Positions 4,617-29,200 of a stretch of 64,000 bases of DNA are shown here, piece after piece. The notes beneath the pieces are model-generated. The model had not been told where the DNA came from, did no database searches, and saw only the letters and a program-made list of their open reading frames with translations. Within the stretch, counting starts at the first letter, position 1, and each line of letters starts with the position of its first letter. This DNA is from Deuterostichococcus epilithicus. Lineage: Eukaryota; Chlorophyta; Trebouxiophyceae; Prasiolales; Stichococcaceae. The stretch covers positions 2,294,082 through 2,358,081 of the forward strand of contig JAVTLE010000011.1 of assembly GCA_033439295.1 (NCBI GenBank). The letters are read 5' to 3'. A program made the translations under genes and the position numbers.

Positions 4617-6618
4617 TCAGGCGGCGGGCTCTGGCACCTTGACCTTGATGCCCATGTTCTTCGCTGTGCCCTCCACAATGCGCATCGCTGCCTCGATGGT
4701 GGTCGCGTTCAGGTCGGGCAGCTTGATCTCTGCGATCTCCTGCAGCACAAGGAAACAGAGGGATTGGCCAGGTGAAACATACCTGCTGGTGTCAGCTTGC
4801 GCACATGGAGCACAGCTGCCATCCAGCCCTCCTTCCTTGGCGAACCACGGAGGTGTACAAGTTGCTCCCAGCACACGATCAGCAATCGACTCGGGGCAAA
4901 CCGACGTGGCGCTCTCCACAGCAGACGCGTGCCGCCCGTGCCACAGGCTTGGCCTGCTCGTTGCATATCCGGGCAAATGAGCATTGCAGCAGCTTCAGCG
5001 TGGCAGCACACTCAGGGTTGCAGCGCAGTAGCACGGCGCGCCTTGAGCTGCTCCTGGGTGATGCTGCCGACGGAAACCTTGTTGGGCTCGCCGCTGCCGG
5101 ACTTGATGTTGGCCGCCTTCTTCAGCAGGTCACTCGCCGGCGGTGTCTTCAAAATGAAGGTGAAGCTCCGATCCTGAGAGTCCCCAGGCGACAGAAGACA
5201 TCAGTGACGGGTCGACCTGGAGGCAGTGGCGTCTGGCGCATGCGGCGGGGGCAGCCTCCGCCTCCCGGGGGCCGGCGGCAATGCTGAGCCAGCAACCTAG
5301 CGGCCACAGCCACACAGGGGCGGTGTCCTCTGGGAAGGGTGCACGAGCGGCGTGCTGGCTGGGCCACCACGCCGCCACAGCCGCGCCGGAGGTGCTCGCA
5401 GCTCCCGCACCGCAGGTCCTCGAGTGCAGGCTGTGTCTCCCTCTGCGCAGGGGACCGCACGAAGAGGAACCGCAAGCCGCGGCGCGCAGCACACCCCCAG
5501 CGTGCAGCGTCCTGCCAGACCTCAGAGCGTTGCCAAGTTCGCGCACCTCGAAAACAGTGATCTCCACAGGGATGATCTGGCCCGGCTTGTCCTGCGTCCG
5601 TGCGTTGTACTCCTTGCAGAACTGCATGATGTTGACGCCCTGCGCGCCGGCGCATCCACGACTCAAAGGGTCTGCATGTACAGGCTGTCTGTGCCACTGT
5701 GCATATGCTGCGCAGAGGTTCTGCACTGCTCCAGGCACTGGCGGCATGCCCGTCTGAGTTGCGGCACGCCCCGGCGGTCGCATGGCTGCTGCGGCAGGGT
5801 TGCCACATGTCCGACGGCCGCTGCCGTGCCGCCCTGCAGCTGCGTCACCGCAGAGCACCCCCTCCTCCCTCCGGACTGGCACGGCTGCTCCTGCAACCGG
5901 CAAGGTTGAAGGGCGCTCTGGGGGCAGCAAAGCCTCTCACCTTGGCACCGAGGGCTGGACCGACCGGCGGCGCCGGGTTGGCCTTGCCGGCGTCAAGCGC
6001 CAGCTTGATGTACCCCTTCACTGCAGCACAGGAAAGTACGACGGCGTTTCGCCATATGCTCAGGCCAGCCTGCCGGACTTGCAGTTGCCACCTCTTTTCC
6101 TGGTAAGCCACCATGGCGGCAGTCCCTGCCAGCTTGGCCTCAAACATGCACGGATGAAGCTCCCAGAGAGAGAGCACGAAGCTGCTAGAGCTTCCCAGGA
6201 TTGTCACGATCGGCGGCACCGGCAGCATGGCACCGCAATGGGCGCTCATGGCTCTGAGCCGAGGTGCTGACCTCAGGTCATGGATCGAAGCCATGCAGGA
6301 GCGAGACCTGACCCGTTGAGCACGGAACTGTCTTGACCGACCTGACAGCAGGGCCAAACATCCACGAGCACAGGGTGATGCCTCACCTTTCGAGGCCATC
6401 ATCGTGACGTTTCGCCGGCTGCCGCTGCCATGCTGCGTCTGCCAGTTGCTGCGTCTGAGAGGAGCGCCGTTGAAGGCTGTTCGCTGCAGGGGTGCGCCGC
6501 TGAAGCCGCTGCACAGGCGGCCGCTGCATGGGGCGCTGCTGCCCGGGCGGCTGGCCTCTTGCCGCGACGCCCCGCAGGCTGGCTGACGCATCATCATAGA
6601 GGCGCCCGCTGCAGCCAT
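4617..6618 (-). CDS. rpl11: Plastid 50S ribosomal protein L11 (bL11c), nuclear-encoded
   Basis: Five exons, complement(6387..6618, 5941..6020, 5547..5639, 5042..5173, 4617..4739), give 219 residues. Residues 1 to about 77 are Ser/Ala/Arg-rich and acid-poor, like a chloroplast transit peptide (start [16 protein letters not shown]). The mature part is textbook bL11: [51 protein letters not shown] and [20 protein letters not shown]11 binds 23S rRNA at the GTPase-associated centre, and its flexible N-domain contacts elongation factors. The bacterial-type sequence and transit peptide place it in the plastid ribosome. Intron 4 starts with GC (AAG|GCGCGC at 5041) instead of GT; the conserved LK-EIAEIK junction fixes this site. 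Confidence 0.93.
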
Positions 6619-7318
6619 GGCGGTGATATGTTGGTCGCAGCTCAAGAGGGAGGTCACGAAAAGCACCGGCGCTGTCGCCACATCGCCCGAGTGTGCCCAA
6701 TATTACCCTTGCACGGGCTGCTGGAAGTAGCCGATACCTTGGACTAGCCTGGGCGGCTGTGCTGTGACACCTGGTGGTGCTATGGACATTTGATGTTCTT
6801 GATGTTCTTGAGGTGTAACAATTCATGGGCACATTGATAGCATTACAATCAGCAATGTTTGCTGCCCACAGAGCAACGCAGTGCCTCGAAACCCGAACCT
6901 GCAGTAGTGGGCACTCCCAAAAACTGCTCCAGGCCGCAACCTGGCTTCTGCCCCACGCCACAGGTACACAATGATGCAGACGGGGGCAGGCAGACAAAAA
7001 CCAACAGTGGGCCACCCGAACGCCTTCACTTCAGTGCGGCTGATCAGTCTGGTTGCTGAGCTGGGCTGAGCCACAGGCCATGATGCATACAAGTCACAGA
7101 CAAGTGGTCAATGGCTCGCAATGGACCTACATGTAACATATGGAACGACGTCTTCTCATCAGCGCCTTCCACCCAGGCGAAAAGGCGCGTCTGGCATTGC
7201 CGCGAGTGATTCCCCATGGAACCCATGGAACCTGGTGCGGCATCTGTGGACCGGCAAGGACGGGGCCGCACCGCCTCGCAGTGCTGCAAGCGGGCCCTTG
7301 CAGTTGAGAGCTAGGCTG
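6619..7318. other. Intergenic region upstream of plastid L11, no gene seen
   Basis: This 700-base stretch holds the promoter side of L11 (-) and the end of the PP2C locus. No open frame here looks coding. Confidence 0.5.
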
Positions 7319-11503: not shown

Positions 11504-14500
11504 ATGGCGACAATCGGGCGCTATACGCTGCTGCTTGCGGTTATGTGCGGTGTTCAGCTGATGGGACTCTCGCAGGCGCGCCTCGTTTCGCCACTTGGCT
11601 CGCTTTCTGCCCGAAGCGATTGCTGCCCGCCACAGCCGCTGCGACCGGGCCAGATTCTTTGACATAGGGCATCAAGCGTTGACAAGCTTGCGAAGGCCCA
11701 CACACAGAGCAGTGCGCGGTGCTCAGGTTGCTGTACGACAGTTCCAGGTCGCGAACAGCCGCGTTGGCAGGCGCTGCTGTGAGCGAATAACCACAGCGGT
11801 CCACCCAGCTGCTCAGCGCAGTGTGGTCGCTCAGCGTGCAGCGCAGTGGCTTCACGATGCCCCTCACTCCTGTCATCCCTCACTCGGTTGGTTGTACGTA
11901 TGGTCTGCAGGCATCGAGGCCCGGCCCCATGCTCCGCGGCGGCATGGTCATCATCATGTTGCGCCAGTCCCAGCGTGCAGACGCGCTCTTCAGCGGCTTC
12001 GGCGAGGCAGCTGCGAACCGGGCGTCCGGCGGGGATATGAATGCTGCGCAACTCTGGTGCGTCACCTTGCACGCCGTGATGTATGTGCCATGATTTAGGC
12101 AGCACGTGCCGGCTCATTCTCCGTACGATTTCACAACGTCCTTGCTCAAAGAGACATGCAGCAAGACATGCAGCAGATGCAGCGAGTATCACCGCCAGGC
12201 TCCACCGCCACACAGGCGGAGCATCAGCATGCACTGTGTTGCAAACATGCGTACCTTACCTGCACATGCATCCTCGCCAGGCTGCACCGGCAGACGCCGC
12301 TGGTGGACTTGCTGGTGCCGCGCCGGCCGTGCCGGTTTGCCAATGAGCGCCGCCTTCCAGAGCCGGACGCTATGGCACAACAAATGGCTGTGGCGCGCTT
12401 CGGGCAGAGCATGCTGTTCGACCTGCTGTCGGCGTCAGAGGTGGGGTATTGAGCTGAACACGACCGCGTGTTGATGTGTGAGGCAAATTGCATGCTTTGG
12501 CTAGCAGCGCGCTGTTCAGACGCATGCGCTACATCATGGATCTGCTAGGCGATGCTGGTAGCATCGTACTCGCATGCGTGACCATGTGCGCCCCATGGCC
12601 TGACGGTATCTGTGTTGAATACTTTAGGCGCTGCCCCGCCAGCATGGTCTTGAAGCAGCCGAAGCGATTGAGCGGCAGGAGGAGCCGGGGCGGCTGGCCG
12701 CAGAGCCGGCAAATGCTGCTGGTGCCACATCGCGGCAGCTCATCCGCGAAGTTGCAACGCAAAATCTGTCAACCGACCCTCAGCCAGCGCGTCAAGCAGC
12801 ATCAGTGGCGGCTCGAGGGCTCCCCGGGGGCGCTCTGGCGACCCGCGGCTCCTGGCCGGCTGCAGCTGCCATGCGCCTGCCCGCTGCCGGAGCAGAGGGG
12901 CCCACCCCCGATAGCAGCGGCGTCAGCGCGGCCGAGTACGCCGCGTACTGCTCCCGACCCGGCGGTGACATGTTTGTAAAGCGCTTTGCGCTGTCAGAGC
13001 GCGAGGCGATGCTCTTCGCACGCGGCAGCAGGCTGTACCAGTCGCTGGACAATTCCTGCGACATCCGGATCCAGGTGGGCATGCCTAGAAGAGGCTTGGG
13101 CGCATCGACCTGCATGCACCAACCTGCGGCGGCAGCGTCAGCTCCACCTCAAATGGGTCATCTAGTGCTCCTCGTGCAATTACGGCTCAGGCATCGCAGA
13201 GATTGCACTTGAGCTGGAAGCGCTGAGCGAGTTTGGGCAATGCTTGGCCCTGTCTACTGTCCAGCGCATGCGCCACACGAGAGAGTGGCAGTGGCTGTGA
13301 GACATGACTCTCGACACTTGACTCTGGCCGCATCTGATGCCGCTTGGCAGGGCACGCATCGAGGCTTCGAGTTGGTCGTCAGCAGGGATGCTGCATCTGA
13401 TGGCATGGGACTCTGAAGCGGGACCCTGTCGCTGGCAGGTCGACGTGGACCGCTCCTGGCCGGTCATGGCCCTGGCGGGCGACACCGCAGCGGTCGCCGC
13501 TGCCGCCGCTGCCTGGGTGCGCACCCAGCTGGCCGACGGCCATGCGGCGTGGCGCGCGGCGCAGCTGTGGGCCGGCCTGCCGCTGCCGGCCTCGGGCGGG
13601 CGCGACCGGCGCTTCGTGGACCTACCGCCGGATGCCGCGGCGCGGCTGTCCAGCGGACGCGGCGCCTCCAAGCTCGCCGCGCTGCAGGCCGCGTATGGCG
13701 TGCACATCGCTGTCCTGCNCCCGGNTCGGCTCCTGGCCCCGACTCCGCGCCCCCGGGACCCCCGCCGCCCGCAGCCCGCCGTGATGGCCATCTCCGGCGC
13801 CGGCAGCTCGGTGGACGCCGCCGAGGCAGCCCTGCGCGAGGCGCTCGCCAACGATGACGCNGCCGCCGCGGCGGCTGCTGCCGCGGAGGCCGCGGCGTCG
13901 TATGCCGCCTCGCCGCGCATTGCCGCGCGCCACGCAGCCCACCGGCTGTTGCGCGCCGTAGAAACTGGTCCCAACTGGCTGCGGCGCATGCTGAGTCCCC
14001 CCTGGCGCAAGCAGAGCAGCTTCGAGCTGGACGCGGCCGCCGTCGCCAGCCTGGCGGTCCACGGCGCTGACGGCGTGAAGGCGCTGCAGAAATCCTACGA
14101 CGCCGTCATCCAGGCGAGCACATCGATGGAGCCTGCCCCCCGAAACAACGGCCGTTCGCACCAAGCAACTTACGCATATCCCTAGCACTCCTACAGCATG
14201 GCGCCTCAACACCGAACTACGTGCATCTGCAATAGAGCGAATGCGCCAATCTGCTGCTGTGCTGTGCGCAGATGAAGCTGGCCGAGCAGCCGCCAAAGGT
14301 GTACATCCTGGCAAGCGAGGCGGAGGCTGACATGATCGCCGCCTCTGTCAAGGCCATGCTCAACATGCGCGGCCACGCGCTAGCGGCCGGCCACTCTGCC
14401 GTTGCCACCAACATGGCCAGCGATAATTCAGAGGTGTGGTTCTTGCAGGGCCCCATGTCTGTGTGCCGCCGCTCAGACTAACGGTCACTGGGAAGCGGCA

Positions 14501-15898
14501 ACAGAGGTTCTGCAGCGTGCATGTGACACGCAGACACTCGCAACGGGCCGAGCTGTCTGCACGGCCGCTGCAGCGCCCAGGCGGCTGCGTGACTGGCCGG
14601 CTCTTGAAAGGCTTGCATGTTTCGCCTTGCCCTACTGCTGTTGGACACGTCTTCTCATGTGCCTTCGACACATCCACGTGCGTGCCTGCGCAGCAGCCCC
14701 GGCGCCTCGAGCGGCAGGATGGCGCCCGCTTCTATGACGCCAGCGCTGCCGGCAAGGGCGACATTGACACTGGCATGGACCATGCATCCAGCTTTCAGGC
14801 TCTTTACCACAACCGGTGAGGCCTACTGAGCGAGACCCATTTGGTGTTCCTTCTCAAATGCAGTGCATAAGGCCACTGGCAAATGTGGGCATAGGCATGT
14901 TGGATGCAGCGCCGTGAAGCGGTGCATTGCACAAATGTGTAAACTGTGGCTTTGCTGCCATGACAGTGGATTCCACCTTGTCATTACCAGCAGAGCCTTG
15001 GACAACGCGTTCACAGCCTCACAATGCCTCCGTTGGCTCATGCCCTCGTCCCTCTGCTACCCTGACGCCGACGCCGGTCTGCCGCAGGCCGGCTGCGTCG
15101 GCCGCCGTGTCGACAAAAGGCGAGGCTAGGCTCCCTTGGCGGAGGAGGAAGCCGGTCCTGATCGGGCCGTTCTTCACATATTCCGGCACGGTGCGCGCCA
15201 TTGCTGCCGGATTTGATCGCCTCCTGTTGTTTATCGAAGCCCACACCACACTGTCCCGGAGTTGGCAGCGCAGCGCCCGCCTCCGCTCAGCAGTCCCCTG
15301 ACAGTGCGCCTGGCTCAAGCTTCGAAGTGTGCCTCCATATTGCTGCTTCATCGTGCATCCACTGGCAGGCGGTGCCAGCTGCTGGCCCCTGGTGCCACAC
15401 CGCCAGTTTCAGACCAGCGATTCCATGCCTGGCCACGCGCAGCTGTGCTCCACCGTGCGCTGTTGCCTCCGACCCCCCACAGTGCTGCTTGCTTTGGCCG
15501 CATCCGCTCCCCTGCGCCAAACTCACGGAGCTGCCCTGGTGCGCGCACAGTTGAATGCCAACGCCGCCACCCTCCTGCTATGCGTCGTTGGGTGGGCAGC
15601 CCTGCTGGTGCAGTGGTGCGCATCCCGCCGCGCCGCACACCGTGGGCGGCGCGGTCGCCGTGCCGCCGCCGCTGCCGTCGCTGCTTCGAGCCCCCAATGT
15701 ACCCAAGCTCAAGCAGCACCCAAGCACGGCCTCGAGGAGCTGCTGCTCAGCCCCCTGCAGCATGAGGGACTCGCTTCCGGCGTCCACTACGGAGTGGAGT
15801 CTGCTGCCGCGTACGTGGCGCACATGCCAGCGGCACAGGCTGGGTTTGTCACGCTGCAGTACTTGCCGCTGGGCAGCGAGCAGTGTGCGCAGCCGTGA
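11504..15898 (+). CDS. Secretory-pathway membrane protein with three KH-like domains (paralogue 1)
   Basis: Nine exons (11504..11575, 11911..12056, 12281..12440, 12628..13074, 13439..14113, 14272..14433, 14694..14815, 15088..15190, 15551..15898) give 744 residues. Order: signal peptide (1-24, core YTLLLAVMCGVQLMGL); an unrecognised N-domain starting RPGPMLRGG; three KH-like units (about 241-306, 334-412 and 468-532) with beta-alpha-alpha-beta-beta-alpha layout, the third keeping a GADG loop like the KH GXXG; one membrane span (about 633-652) followed by an Arg cluster; and a tail ending FVTLQYLPLGSE. The predicted topology is type I, with KH units on the luminal or outer side. Introns 1 and 5 have GC donors. 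Ambiguous bases at 13719, 13725 and 13861 leave two or three residues unknown. No known protein was recognised; the KH assignment is by pattern, not by search. Confidence 0.75.
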
Positions 15899-16472
15899 GT
15901 GGCGGCGGCTAATAGCTGGCCAGCGTGCGGCTGCGCCGGCCCCTCCTCGGCTGCATCTATCTGCGCCGCTGTCATGCCACCGCCCATGTACAATAGTAGC
16001 TGGATGCATTGAAGCTGTGCATTCATCCCTGGGCCACCGCATTCAAGGTATTGCATGCTGGGCCTGGACTCTGCGTGCCTCCAGTTGGCAACAGCTTCTC
16101 GTGGCCTTCATGCTGCAGGACGACCTGGAACTCCACCACTGAAACTCTTTGGTATTTTCGTCGAGACAGTCTGTCTCTACATCTTTCAAACAATTATATG
16201 CAAACTCTGTCTCCAGGCAGCCTGGCCACAGCATACATTGTTATATAGACCCTTGTCAGCCCCGTCACCATCGCGTTGGTCAAGTGTGCCCATTTCGGTG
16301 CACGCGTAAAACGTGAACACACCACGCAGCGAGGCTCTCAATCTGTCTCGACTGTCGACACATCTCGATTGCAGCTGGTGGGCCCCGCAGCACCAGCTAA
16401 GGGGCCTGCCGAGTGGCCAGAGCTTACGTGGGGGACGGTTGGTGAGCTGCAAGAATCACGGCAGCAGCCGGC
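15899..16472 (+). promoter_or_regulatory. Intergenic and promoter region of paralogue 2
   Basis: These 574 bases lie between the tandem paralogues. A TATA-like element (TTATATAG, 16241-16248) lies about 225 bases before the start codon of the second gene. No other coding exon was found. Confidence 0.4.
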
Positions 16473-19400
16473 ATGGCGATATCCCGCGGCTGCAGCCTGA
16501 TGCTACTGGTCGTCTGCATCGCGCAGCTGGCGCCCATCCATGTACAGGTGCGTCACTGCCGGCTCGGCTCCCTCGAAGCTTCGTTTAGGACGGCCTCGAG
16601 GCGAGGTGCACCGGAGGGCAGGGTGCCTCGGCTGCAACGCAACTGCTTCTTTGAGCTCCACAGGTTCTGGGCCTTCTGCGATTCGCGTCGCTTGGTGCGG
16701 CCTCCAGTCGCCTTTTTTGTCTGTCAAGTTTGTCATGCTCACGCGAGAGACGGGATGGTCTATGCGTGCAGCGCGACGAGAAGATGCCAGCCAAGTTGAT
16801 CAACATGTTAGGAATGCCAATCTGGACCGGCCTTGTCGCGCTCCCAGAGGTGGCTGAGAGGGGTGACGCCGACATGCACCTCGAACTTGCTGGTGCAGCA
16901 GCGTTCTAAACATGCTGCGTCATGTGCGCGCACGTCAGCAAACAACCGCACGTAACGACCTCGAACTGTGGGCGCGCTGCTCGCAGCCGGCGGAGTCGCA
17001 TCAACTCTTTTCAGTTGCAGACTCTGCGCGACGGTCTGCACCATCACTGTCGAGCAATTTGGTAGATCAAGGTGCTTGGCACACCTGCCCCGCTCGCCTC
17101 GCACTGAGTTCGTCTTCGCTTTTCAACCATCGCAGGCGACGCGGCCAGGGCCCATGCTGCACGGCGGCACAATCATCCTGCTGCAGCGGCCCCGCCAATA
17201 CATGAAGCACCCCTCGCAGCTTGGCCTGGGCGGCAGCTTCGACGTGGCTACCCTGGATCGCATCTTTGATGGCTCCTCCATCTTCGGTCCCTCCATGCGC
17301 ATGTGAGTGTTTCGTTAGAAGGTGTCTCCCATTGCATGATGCACGGGTTTGGTTGTGTCTTGACATCTGCAGGCGTGCAAACTGCACCTACATGCATTCG
17401 CAGAGCTCGTGTCGGCGCAGGCACGATCTTGAGCTCGTGACGGGGCATCGTCATTCCCTCCATGTGTGCCTGTTCTGCAAGTGCACGAGACTCTGGTGCC
17501 AAGCACCGAAGATTACGCTCACGCTGAAGGTGCGCGAACCTCTGCAGATTCGAGCAGCAGTCGCCGCTGGCGGGCATGTTCGGTGAGCCACGCCGGCCGT
17601 GCTCCCTCGGCAAGGCCCGGACCCAGGATCAGGAGGCCATGATGAGGCACATGGCTGCCGCACGCTTTGGTCCGAGCCTGCTCTCGTCTTTGCTGGCGGC
17701 CGCAGAGGTGCGGCGTTGAAATAAAGCAGCAAAAGAGGTGTAGCTAAAGACATCGACTTCGCCGACTCGTCCTGGCTGCACACGTTGTAGCGCTGCAGCG
17801 CTTGTACCGCATCGTGGCCTGATGAGACATTGCCTGTGGCCGCTGATGTGGAACATGAGCTCGCAGATTGCACCTGCTGCCGGCTTCGACAGAATGATGT
17901 GGTCATCGATGGGATGTCCTGCTCCAGCTTGTGGAGCTTCCGCATGAGCTCTTCATACGTTCGTGTCGGCCTGTGGCCACATGAAGTCGTCTCAGTCGTG
18001 AGCCTTTTTTGGCCGCAGGCCGACCGCCACAGCATTGCAGAGCCCGTGTATGCCGCACACCCGGGCCACAAGGTGTGTGTGTGTGTGTGGGTTTTTTAAT
18101 CTGTGTGCCTGGACGAGCGGTGCATTGGGCAAGCAGTCGTGTTCGACTGCTACACTTGCAGATGCGAAAGCTCTCTCTGAGGGCTGAGTGGGTCCACGAT
18201 GCGACTGGCTCGAGCAGCACACCCTGGTAACCTGCAGGCGGCAGCCCAGCAGCCGCGGCGACTGGGCGGTGTCGACGGCGCAAGGCAGTCGCGGCGGCAG
18301 CCCGGCTCCGCCGCCGTCGCCTGGGAGCGGTTCAGCCTTCCTGAACCCGCTGCGCGCACGTTCGCCAACCCGGGCGGCCCGGAGACCATCGAGGGGATGC
18401 AGCGACGGCACGGCGTGAGCATCACCATTGATGACGGACGCTCAATGATGACCATCTCGGGCGAACCGCAGGCCGTTGATGCGGCTGCGGCTACTCTGGG
18501 GCCGATGATCCACACTCTGGCTACGCAGGTGCCGTTCTTTCTCACCGAAAAGTCTGTGGCTTCCGATTGCTGGTCAGCTGCTTGCGAGCCATCAGAGCCT
18601 CGCTTTGGGGTGTGCGCGGCACGGCGGCACCGGTCCCGACGCCGTCAGCTGCAGAGGCAGCAAGCGACAGATGGAGGCCTGCAGCCAGCGATGCTTCACG
18701 CTAGCCTCCCCTATCATGGCCCTGTGCTGTTATCGTCGCCTTGCCCGGACCATTGCATGTCAGCTCATTGGCTGTCACAGTCCCGTGTCAGATGTAGGGA
18801 TTAGGGTTAGGGTGACCATGATGCACCTTCGCGCCACAGCTGCTGCCAGCTTCGTTGATACATGCCTGGCCTTCAAAACCGCTTGCCTCGCTGTTGCAGG
18901 TCCAGCCCCTGCCGGCAACGGCCGCGGCTGGCTCACAGCCTGCGGCCGCCGGCGCCAGCTGGCGGTTCAGGGACTTCGTGTCGCGCGTCGGCGATGGCGC
19001 GTCGGCGGACGACAGCACGCAGCGGGCGCAGTTCGAGGGCGTCCCAGCACGGGCGCAGCCTGTCAGGTGGGTCGCGTCTGCTGTCGCATCTGCAGGTCGC
19101 TCGGAACTTGAGGCGTGATTGGAGGGCCGCCCCAGTGGCTGGCTGACCTGAGCGCACCGACGAGGCCTGGAGATTGTGTGCTGTTGGTACCGAGGTTGCG
19201 CCAGCCTGGAGGTAGAAAGGGATGCGGACGCTTTGGGCCCTGCCTGCGGACTGCAGCGGGTCCAGCCAGCCTCGTCCCCCATGCCCCCACTGCACAGTCG
19301 TGTGGCCTTGCCCCCGTCCTCGCTTGCCAGCGTTTCGCATGGCAGCAGGCCCCGTGTCGGGACGGCTGTGCTGAGGTGCCTCTGCGCCGTGCAGGCTGCC

Positions 19401-20383
19401 GCACGTGTGGTCCAGCGGCTACGGCGACGGCGCCCCTCGCACCGCGCGCCCCCACCTGGCGCAGCTGCCGGCGCTGACCTGGGACGTCTTTGAGACCGAC
19501 GGCCAGGTGGCGGGCAGCCTTTTTCGCTTCCACGCATGTGTCCTGCATGTGTCCTGCATGCATTCTGTGCGCGGGCCGCAGGCGCCTGCTGCGCCGACGG
19601 TCACGCTCGGCGCCCACCCAACACAGCCCAAGCTCTGGCCACCTGATGTGGCGGGCTGTGGATGTTCTTGCCTGCAAGCAGGGCCACTGCCGGCAGCTCT
19701 GCGATCTGTGCTGCTGGCCTGCAATTATCTCGCCATGGTGGCACGCCGCTTCTTCGCACCCGCTTGCGCCAGGCATCCCTTCCACTTCGTCCGTCTCCAG
19801 AGCCTTGGCTGAGCCACATCGTTTGCCCCTGCGCGCAGCTGAACGGCGGCGTGCTGACTTTCCTGTTGCTGTGCATCGCAACGGCCGCGGTGTGGTCGCG
19901 CCTGCTGGTGCTGTGGTGCACCTTCCGTGCCGTCTCCCGCGCCGGCGGCGCATTTGGCTGCCGCCGCCGCCTCTGCCTCCGCTCCAGGCCGGCTTTCGAC
20001 GGCGTCGCCATCAAGGACGGGCTCGAGGCACCTCTGCTCAACCCACTGCACCACGAGGCTCCCATCAAAGGTGTGCCTCAGGCTGCATGGACCTGACAAA
20101 CACTCAGCTCGGAGCACTGCTGCAACTCAGAACGGAGCCGCGTGCGGGTGGTGCTGTGCAGCTCGCTCCACTCTAAATTTGCCTGCTCACTGAGATGAAT
20201 GGGAAAGGTATGAATCAGCTCACTGCATTCCCGCACCGGATCTGAACATCCTGGTCCTGTTTCCAACTGCCTGTTGCATTTCGTGCAGGCGAGCCCTACA
20301 GGGTGGAGGTTGCGACGACGTATGCGGCGCCTGCCGACAGCTTCGTCACGCTGCAGTATGTGCCCCTCAAGGGCGAGCACTAG
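16473..20383 (+). CDS. Secretory-pathway membrane protein with one KH-like domain (paralogue 2)
   Basis: Nine exons (16473..16547, 17136..17302, 17548..17707, 18019..18072, 18238..18528, 18900..19066, 19395..19506, 19839..20070, 20289..20383) give 450 residues. It matches paralogue 1 in plan and in detail: signal peptide (MAISRGCSLMLLVVCIAQ), RPGPMLHGG, then SPLAGMFGEPRRPC against TPLVDLLVPRRPC, then ARFGPSLLSSLLAAAE against ARFGQSMLFDLLSASE. Exon 3 is 160 bases in both genes. Only one KH-like unit is present (about 181-247, FSLPEPAAR to TISGEPQAVDAA). A membrane span (about 345-371) and a tail ending FVTLQYVPLKGE follow. This is an old tandem duplication with gain or loss of KH units. Function unknown. 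Confidence 0.75.
18073..18088 (+). repeat. (GT)8 microsatellite forming a splice donor
   Basis: Intron 4 of paralogue 2 begins with eight GT dinucleotides directly after CACAAG, so the donor lies within a slippage-prone repeat. Confidence 0.85.
18795..18812 (+). repeat. Short telomere-like repeat inside an intron
   Basis: TAGGGATTAGGGTTAGGG lies in intron 5 of paralogue 2. It is two to three TTAGGG-like units and does not reach the splice sites. Confidence 0.6.
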
Positions 20384-26200: not shown

Positions 26201-29200
26201 CGCAGTTGCCGTGCTCGCAGGAGCCTGAAGATCGCAGCCGCGGTCCAGAGCAGCGACGGCGTGCTGGAGGACCCGCTGTTTGGCCTGCGGCCCGCCGCCG
26301 CGCCGCAGCGCATCGGCTCGGGAGTCCAGGCGCGCAGCCGTCATTCACAGCCAGGCGCAGCACAAAGCGGCGTGTTCTGCTGCATCCCAGAGCCAGCTGC
26401 CGTGCCCGCGTCTCTACTCGGTGGCCTGCGGCGAACGGCGGCGCAGCGCCTCACGAGGTTGCACACCATGAGAGCGCAAAGTGGTGGAATGTGCCGCACA
26501 AGCCGCAACCTGCTTATGTGTGCGCCAGGCGATGGCGCTCTGGACAGGTGTCAGTGGGAAGACAGTATGCGCAAACGTGGAGGTGTTCATCATCAAGTCC
26601 TTGCTGCAGCGCAAGCCGCATCCGCGCCCAGCAGCGGTGCGCTGGACGATGCGAGGCACAGACTGGACAGCATGGCACGGAGTGTTTCTGAGACCCTTCG
26701 CCGGTTCCTCCACGCCAGGGCAAGCCGCACCTGCTGGTGTGCGCGCCCAGCAACGGCGCCCTGGACGAGATCACCATCCGGCTGCTGCGCACGGGGCTGC
26801 TGGACGGCCGCGGCCGCCCCTGGAAGCCCATGATCGTGCGTGTGGGCGTCAGCGTCCACCACTCCGTGGAGCGGGTGTCCCTCAACTCCTGGGTTGGCCG
26901 CCGCACGAAGAAGGCGCAGGTGCGAGGGGCGCAGCCGTCGGCGGTCCTGCAACCCTGTCGTCACACCGCTGGGGCGCTGCCACAGCCTTGCACGGCGCGG
27001 CAGCGCGGGACGTGGAGCCGCGGGCGTGGCAGGGCGCGCATGCGGAGGGGCACCCCTCCCGTGCGCTGACGCAGGCCGGCCGGATGCGCGCCGTCGCCAG
27101 GTTGCAGGCGTGCAGGATGCGGAGCCACGAGCGGCGCGGGAGCCGACTCTACAGACAGCGTCGGCAACATTACTGCTCGCCCCAAATGCGTAGGGTTCAT
27201 GGTTGACGGCGCAAACCCTGCATGCACAGGACGCGGAGCCGAAGGCGGAGAAGGCGGAGCGGGAGCGCGTGCAGACGCAAGTCCTGGACGAGGCGGACAT
27301 CATCTGCTCCACGCTCAGCTTTGCGGGCAGCGGCATCTTCTCGCGAATGGCTCGCCCGCTGGACGCGCTCGTCGTCGACGAGGCCGCGCAGGCAGTGGAG
27401 CCTTCGGTGCTGATCCCGCTCACGCTCGGCATCAAACAGGTGTGCGCCGCTGCGGAGCTGCCCTCGTTTGTGTGAACCCCTATCTTGACTGGCGCCGCTG
27501 GGCTTTGTCAGGCAGGTGTGCGGTGCGAGCGAGCCCCAAGCAGCATCCGCTGCGTGATTATTCCATGGTCAAGCGCCAGCCTCGATGGTATTCGGCCCGC
27601 CGCTCGGTGTGAAGCTTGGCCACACCACGCAGCCAGGGTGTGTCACTGGCAGATTTCGCCAGGCGCATGGGCGGCGACACGAGGTGCACTCCGGATGTTC
27701 AGTGCAGGGCAGGTGACCCTGTGTGTGGAGTAGCTCCTGTCCCGGAGGATCCGCAAGCAGCGGTAGCGCAACATCCTGCGACTCCATCCCCCCTAGGTGT
27801 TCCTCGGGGGCGGACCCAGCCAGCTACCGCCAAAGGTCGCCTTGGCAGCGCTCCCGGACCAATGTCATCGTCTGCTCACAAAGGACACACTGCAGTCGCC
27901 ATGATTCCGCCACAAACGTCATGCATGCCCCTTGTGCAGGTGTTCCTGGTGGGCGACCCGAACCAGCTGCCGGCGACGGTCATCTCCAAGGACGCGCTCG
28001 CCTACGGCTACGACGTGTCGCTCTTCCAGCGGCTCCAGGCCGCCGGCCATCCGGTGCAGGTGACTGCAGCTTCAGTTGGTGTTTCTTTTTGCGCATCAGG
28101 GACGATCGCTGTAAGGGGCAATGGCGTCATGCTCATCACGGACAGTCGGACCCTCAGTGCATTGCACAAGTCTTTGAGCTTGTACGCAGTCTCGAAACCC
28201 AACACCAAGAACCTCGCGATGGTGCAACTGCAGAATTGTAGTGGGGCTGGCGCCGCCGCAGATGCTGGATACCCTGTAGAACGTGCGCAAGCACATCAAC
28301 ACGGCAACAAGCTAAATATGCCTCTATGCCGCAGATGCTGGACACCCAGTACCGCATGCACCCGCTCATCTGCGGCTTCATCTCGCGTGCCTTTTACAGC
28401 GGCAAGCTGGCCGATGCGCCCGGCATGGCGGAGGCTACGGCGGCGCCCTGGCATGCCGCCTCGTGCCTCGGCCCCTTTGCATTCTACGACGTCAAGGGTG
28501 CGCGCGTGGGCTGGCAGAACATGCAAACTTTCCCCGGCGGCCTGAGAGAGGTCCGAGACCAGCACCATGGCCAATGCCGGTGGGCGGCTCAGCAGAGACA
28601 GCTCCAAGGCCGCTCACAGAGCGCATTTGGGGATGGAGCTGGCCGAGTGGAGTTGGGCGAGGGGGCACAAGCCTGGTCCTATACCTGTGGTGGGGCAGCA
28701 TTGCTGCCTGATGCAAGAAGGCACAGGTGGATACATCACTGACCGACCGCGTGGACGCGCAGATGCTGCTGTGCCTGTCCAGGGCGCGTCTCAGGCAGCG
28801 GTAGTACTGCAGCAGTGGAAACGCAGTTACAGTGAGGGTTGTAACTCCCTCATATCGGAGTGAGTTGGTTGCAGGTCGGCACGGCACAGGTGGATCGGGT
28901 GGCGGCAGAGACGGTGCTGCGCCTGCCCAAGGTCATTCCGCTTGGCGTCGGCCTGCATGTGAGGATACCGCTTGGCAACTTACATCGCATCTCCTTCGCT
29001 TCCAGGCAAGGAGGTGCAGGTCGGGACGTCGTTGGTGAATCGGGTGGAGGCGGAAATGGTGCTGTGCCTGTTCAAGGAGCTGACCACTGCGGACCCGGAG
29101 CTGCGGTCCCGCCCCGCCATTGCCGTCATATCCCCCTATAAGGCTCAGGCACGCCCTGGAGTACTCACCTTGGCATCGCACGAAGCTCCAGCCCTGAACT

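Follow-up and report, generated by a model that had tools for sequence, protein, structure and literature searches.

Two neighboring genes, P1 and P2, arranged in tandem on the same strand with 574 bases between them, are supported as a real two-gene family. With moderate confidence, we read their products as a pair of type I membrane receptors with a degenerate KH-like ectodomain, most likely protein-binding, whose tails would be sorted by clathrin adaptors. The window analyzed here is a stretch of 64,000 bases (2294082 to 2358081 of contig 10) from a genome of 46.8 Mb in 21 contigs, probably that of a green alga, and the positions below are those of the window. The two gene models are as follows.

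11504 to 15898, forward strand: gene P1, 9 exons, 744 amino acids (predicted signal peptide, N-domain, three KH-like units, stalk, transmembrane span [TM], tail)
11504 to 11575, 11911 to 12056, 12281 to 12440, 12628 to 13074 and 13439 to 14113, forward strand: P1 exons 1 to 5
14272 to 14433, 14694 to 14815, 15088 to 15190 and 15551 to 15898, forward strand: P1 exons 6 to 9
16473 to 20383, forward strand: gene P2, 8 exons, 432 amino acids (predicted signal peptide, N-domain, one KH-like unit, stalk, TM, tail)
16473 to 16547, 17136 to 17302, 17548 to 17707 and 18238 to 18528, forward strand: P2 exons 1 to 4
18900 to 19066, 19395 to 19506, 19839 to 20070 and 20289 to 20383, forward strand: P2 exons 5 to 8

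Splicing gives a single open frame in each model. All 15 introns of the two genes end in AG and 13 start with GT, the other two (P1 introns 1 and 5) starting with GC. The models reproduce the exon 3 of 160 bases that the initial annotation had reported for both genes, and phase is the same at the six borders taken as corresponding (0, 2, 0, 0, 2, 0), although this agreement is not fully independent evidence, because some exon ends, that of P1 exon 8 above all, were set by comparison with the paralogue. P1 has two extra introns, both of phase 0 and in the KH region, and P2 has one in the tail. GC content at codon positions 1, 2 and 3 was 0.74/0.57/0.79 and 0.70/0.55/0.84 in the two genes and 0.60 in their introns. 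The common parts that had been proposed at the outset (signal-peptide-like exon, N-domain, KH-like units, membrane span and FVTLQYxPL tail) were found in both models, together with all of the named motifs, RPGPMLxGG, PRRPC, ARFGxSxLxxLLxAxE and FVTLQYxPL.

The segments outside the KH region and the tail motifs are these.

11504 to 11575, forward strand: P1 exon 1, signal-peptide-like by hydrophobicity, MATIGRYTLLLAVMCGVQLMGLSQ
16473 to 16547, forward strand: P2 exon 1, signal-peptide-like by hydrophobicity, MAISRGCSLMLLVVCIAQLAPIHVQ
11911 to 12440, forward strand: P1 N-domain, exons 2 and 3, 40% identical to that of P2
17136 to 17707, forward strand: P2 N-domain, exons 2 and 3, 40% identical to that of P1
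14694 to 15190, forward strand: P1 stalk, exons 7 and 8, aligning poorly with the P2 stalk
18900 to 19506, forward strand: P2 stalk, exons 5 and 6, aligning poorly with the P1 stalk
15563 to 15619, forward strand: P1 membrane span, approximate, KD19 peak of 1.97 at residue 635
19857 to 19913, forward strand: P2 membrane span, approximate, KD19 peak of 2.04 at residue 331

The topology of both proteins was read from hydropathy only, which bore out the expectation that each would start like a signal peptide and contain a single strong membrane segment. Among 1250 open ATG starts on both strands of the window, 1.36% reached at least the hydrophobicity of the P1 start and 0.64% that of the P2 start. 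The join of exons 1 and 2 gives what we read as a small-residue cleavage context (SQA/SR and VQA/TR). The hydropathy of the P1 span was reached by 16 of 724 open stretches, P1 and P2 being themselves among the 16, and an arginine-rich stretch follows the span in both proteins. P1 has a second, alanine-rich peak (1.62, residues 284 to 302) inside its first KH-like unit, which could disturb the topology. N-glycosylation sequons number one in P1 and none in P2. The N-domain matched no Pfam family at E values up to 10.

Four elements of the putative cytosolic tails may bear on sorting.

15728 to 15766, forward strand: P1 tail element GLEELLLSPLQHE, ExxLL-like, conserved in the P1/P2 tail alignment
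20019 to 20057, forward strand: P2 tail element GLEAPLLNPLHHE, ExxLL-like, conserved in the P1/P2 tail alignment
15845 to 15880, forward strand: P1 tail motif FVTLQYLPLGSE, with YLPL as YxxPhi
20342 to 20377, forward strand: P2 tail motif FVTLQYVPLKGE, with YVPL as YxxPhi

The tails are 91 (P1) and 83 (P2) residues long and match no Pfam family above its cut-off. Few stretches of the tail are as well conserved as the motif FVTLQYxPLxxE, in which nine residues are identical between the paralogues, four of them with a different codon. The initial annotation had named this motif without pointing to the YxxPhi signal inside it. A YxxPhi sequence is short and common by chance, so that its candidate role here has its one support in conservation across the two paralogues. 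The YMPL of plant vacuolar sorting receptors (VSRs) resembles YxxPhi signals, these receptors are recognized by AP complexes and become mislocalized when the YMPL tyrosine is changed, and a review gives (D/E)xxLL as the other main sorting signal (PMC5264500, PMC4844349). Matches to adaptor mu domains are present in the genome studied here.

VSRs share the predicted layout of P1 and P2 (a luminal N-terminal part, one TM and a cytosolic tail with Y-x-P-L), and hydropathy and motif alone suggest a VSR-type signal peptide, single TM and tail YxxPhi in both proteins. The luminal part of VSRs carries PA-type and EGF-like domains. Neither domain type was matched in Pfam by full-length P1 or P2 at E values up to 10, and the VSR tails described in the same sources are about 30 residues long, in contrast to 91 and 83. 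The likeness to VSRs is therefore one of layout and motif and not of membership. The absence of any known cargo-receptor domain by Pfam, with no family match above cut-off for the N-domain or the tail, would also suit structural, adhesion or signaling proteins of the surface or wall that have the same topology, sort no cargo and use YxxPhi for turnover only. The well-conserved tail motif points to trafficking instead, and we consider a surface protein of this non-sorting kind unlikely, though it deserves to be weighed.

The paralogues are 40% identical in the N-domain and 44% identical in the TM plus tail. Over the signal peptide plus N-domain (125 codons) dN was 0.53 and dS 1.02, and over the TM plus tail (99 codons) they were 0.47 and 1.18. 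Of the 49 identical residues in the first block, 22 use a different codon, as do 20 of the 44 in the second; the poorly aligned stalk gave 0.67 and 0.93 over 37 codons. The earlier claim that the tandem pair is a real gene family thus stands on open spliced frames, the 160-base exon 3, the phases and dN below dS. A mis-modeled gene, really coding for a KH protein of the usual nuclear or cytosolic kind and given a first or membrane exon from another transcript, would agree with the two GC donors in P1 and with exon ends partly set by comparison, but is very unlikely given the same exon order and phases in both paralogues and the protein-level constraint on N-domain and tail.

Between the N-domain and the stalk lie the KH-like units, three in P1 (a, b and c) and one in P2.

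12967 to 13074 plus 13439 to 13549, forward strand: P1 KH-like unit a, residues 240 to 312, loop A-R-G-S
13604 to 13858, forward strand: P1 KH-like unit b, residues 331 to 415, loop G-R-G-A (PF00013, 13.6 bits, E value of 0.058)
14009 to 14113 plus 14272 to 14382, forward strand: P1 KH-like unit c, residues 466 to 537, loop V-H-G-A
18313 to 18528, forward strand: P2 KH-like unit, residues 160 to 231, loop N-P-G-G (PF00013, 24.5 bits)

The models move the P2 unit to residues 160 to 231 from residues 181 to 247, where it had been placed, and N bases leave two residues of unit b undetermined in the sequence. Searched alone, the P2 unit matched Pfam KH_1 (PF00013) at 24.4 to 24.5 bits, above the cut-off of 21.5, while full-length P2 reached 20.4 bits, just under it. 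Translated in six frames, the genome contained 18 matches to KH_1, and the P2 unit (24.1 bits) was among the 14 above cut-off. P1 stayed below 21.5 bits: unit b had only the match listed above, units a and c alone had no Pfam match and full-length P1 had no KH match in Pfam. The second family matched by the P2 unit was KH_PARP14_8 (19.2 bits, below its cut-off of 27), and KH families were the only Pfam families matched among the four units.

Profile comparison extended the similarity to P1. With unit boundaries picked by eye, a profile of the three P1 units alone aligned to nine KH fragments in hhalign at an E value of 3e-6 (score 32.6, probability 88%) and one of the P1 units plus P2 at 2.9e-9 (score 46.4), whereas an N-domain control profile gave 0.46 (score 9.1) and the best scores in 200 column shuffles, which make no correction for that choice of boundaries, were 12.2 for the P1-only profile and 16.2 with P2. 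An HMM built from the nine fragments found P2 at an E value of 1e-6 and P1 at 0.04 in a four-sequence set, the two weak stretches of P1 falling in units a and c. The four units keep their hydrophobic pattern and register in one alignment. Compared directly, the units of P1 and P2 appear barely alike: the P1 KH region and P2 did not retrieve each other's KH units in the genome at E values up to 10, and the P2 unit compared with P1 exon 5 by BLASTP gave 0.037. No alignment of half domains was obtained with MAFFT. A fourth, decayed unit where P1 exon 4 begins was considered but is not claimed, because its sole support was an E value of 0.25.

Against PDB sequences, P2 exon 4 had no phmmer match at E values up to 10. 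A P2/P1b profile matched 25 sequences, the best being a TALE protein (E value of 0.33); 21 were TALE proteins, three were FUBP1 KH domains (0.69 to 1) and one was a nuclease. The four-unit profile gave seven matches. Two unrelated enzymes ranked ahead of the two KH proteins among them (0.24 and 0.61). These weak and mixed lists, in which KH is not the best match, together with the missing Pfam matches of units a and c, the E value of 0.058 for b and the weak direct likeness between P1 and P2 units, are what would be expected if the KH similarity were superficial and the units belonged to an unrelated small alpha/beta domain. We hold this to be very unlikely, since the P2 unit passes the KH_1 cut-off, the P1-only profile reaches 3e-6 and the Pfam matches of the four units are to KH families only.

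KH domains are classic nucleic-acid modules of the nucleus and cytosol, and the initial annotation had noted that the fold normally binds RNA or single-stranded DNA (ssDNA). Its KH similarity held, above the Pfam cut-off for P2 and by profile comparison for P1; binding of RNA or ssDNA by these units was not supported by their loops. In an alignment of nine sequences, from which the loop register was taken and in which the canonical loop is G-K-G-G, none of the four units has an in-register GxxG (N-P-G-G in P2, A-R-G-S in a, G-R-G-A in b and V-H-G-A in c). One inserted residue directly follows the P2 loop. Unit c contains GADG two residues on, out of register, which another alignment might treat as a GxxG whose second x is acidic, and G-x-x-G occurs nowhere in the P2 unit, a or b. 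RNA binding is therefore not the default reading. From their similarity and the loss of the in-register GxxG, we read the units, at the level of sequence, as degenerate KH domains of type I.

Some features would nevertheless suit a luminal or surface nucleic-acid receptor, whose units would capture RNA or ssDNA from outside the cell or in the vacuole and whose tail would carry this cargo to an endosomal or vacuolar compartment. In addition to the KH_1 similarity, the ectodomain is basic overall (pI of 9.8 and 9.9 in the two proteins), a charge that might favor RNA or another polyanion. The three P1 units have R, R or H as the first x of their loops, c has its out-of-register GADG and the units of P1 are in tandem. 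However, the in-register GxxG is missing in all four units, three of the four carry a net negative charge (-3 in P2, -1 in a and -1 in c; b has +2) and we found no precedent for a luminal KH domain in the open-access literature. We therefore regard this reading as very unlikely, and there is equally little chance that the proteins are dedicated extracellular-RNA receptors of a green alga, with RNA, ssDNA or RNA-protein complexes caught by KH modules and delivered by clathrin.

Known parallels include KH-like domains that have also lost the motif. The P2 unit resembles type I KH domains of the FUBP/PCBP/NOVA kind in passing the KH_1 cut-off, but the four units differ from them in having no in-register GxxG and in their position, which is after a signal-peptide-like exon and before a membrane span. 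Like protein-binding KH-like (KHL) domains, the units show similarity to KH but no GxxG in register. Certain KHL domains of PARP14, PARP9 and DTX3L have no GxxG, as in our four units, and are involved in protein-protein contacts (PMC11080071), and in the ex-diKH of KHNYN, KH1 has no GxxG, KH2 keeps it and RNA binding was not observed (PMC11997328), so that the loss shared with the four units is that of KH1. PARP14 is a further point of likeness through KH_PARP14_8, the under-cut-off second match of the P2 unit. Two differences are that, in these sources, neither the PARP14, PARP9 and DTX3L domains nor KHNYN are described as secretory receptors, and that the KHL domains of PARP9 and PARP14 are reported there as acidic, in contrast to the basic ectodomain of P1 and P2. 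A KH protein linked to the secretory pathway is HDLBP/vigilin. It binds ER-localized mRNAs and is not known to have a signal peptide or TM. In the open-access literature we found no description of a KH domain in a secretory or luminal position, in agreement with the original statement that no family with this domain order had been described.

Under the reading that we prefer, a protein-binding sorted receptor, the signal peptide would send the chain into the ER, leaving the N-domain and KH-like units on the luminal or outer side with one helix as anchor. The tail QYxPL, judging from the motif, could be read by the mu subunits of clathrin adaptors, in which case P1 and P2 would cycle between the Golgi and the endosome or vacuole, perhaps also reaching the plasma membrane. 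By analogy with the KH-like domains of PARP14, PARP9, DTX3L and KHNYN, the likeliest partner of the units is a protein ligand or another such unit, rather than RNA. Their number, three in P1 versus one in P2, suggests different ligands or reach. If the conserved pair holds, the KH fold would have been re-used as an ectodomain of the secretory pathway, with or without RNA, and two genes with one expressible ectodomain offer a testable case for luminal or surface RNA-binding proteins, which are an open question.

To look for further members, the genome was searched at the protein level with the P2 tail, whole P2, the P1 KH region, the P1 N-domain and the P1 tail. The P1 N-domain retrieved P2 exon 3 (E value of 1.1e-5) and the P2 tail retrieved the P1 tail (8.6e-11). 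The family has at least two members, P1 and P2 being the only ones at E values below 1e-3, a count that is a lower bound with scoring of the best candidates. Written as a DNA pattern with leucine as CTN only, the tail motif occurred twice in the genome, in P1 and P2, and its reversed control did not occur. A weak match of whole P2 at C18:1001986 (E value of 0.018) covers only P2 residues 114 to 162, with 46% over 52 columns and an E value of 6e-6 within that 3-kb locus, and no KH, TM or tail was found alongside it. The weak matches at C1:94047 and C13:2439698 had no convincing second stretch. No relatives came up among viral contigs, for which the queries were P2, the P1/P2 tail alignment and exon 5 of P1, and phages, queried with the P2 unit only, gave one match (E value of 0.4) that we take as chance. 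Other weak matches in the genome were two with the P1 KH region, two with the P1 N-domain and ten with the P1 tail. Three contigs read in this genome start with AAACCCT-type repeats, which are those of plants and many green algae.

The C-terminal half of the single KH-like unit in P2, the downstream member of the tandem pair of modelled receptor-like genes, resembles the start of exon 4 of its upstream paralogue P1 (window positions 12628-12760), although the tblastn match was not significant (E value of 0.25). This stretch may represent a decayed fourth KH-like unit of P1. Exon 5 of the same gene contains three unresolved N bases (positions 13719, 13725, and 13861; range, 13719-13861), which make two residues in KH-like unit b unreadable. 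In the gene model, two of the eight P1 introns apparently have GC rather than GT donors (positions 11576 and 14114). Short interstitial TTAGGG-like repeats were found in intron 4 of P2 (18795-18812), and differ from the AAACCCT/TTTAGGG repeats of the contig ends.

Other open frames in the window gave the following profile matches:

5133-6702, - strand, ribosomal protein L11 N-terminal domain (PF03946), adjoining parts on two open frames
27613-28542, + strand, AAA_11, one open frame matching weakly (21.2 bits versus a cut-off of 27)

The two PF03946 frames scored 46 bits (above the cut-off) and 26.3 bits (below it). The frame at 27613-28542 is perhaps part of a putative UPF1/SEN1-type helicase gene.
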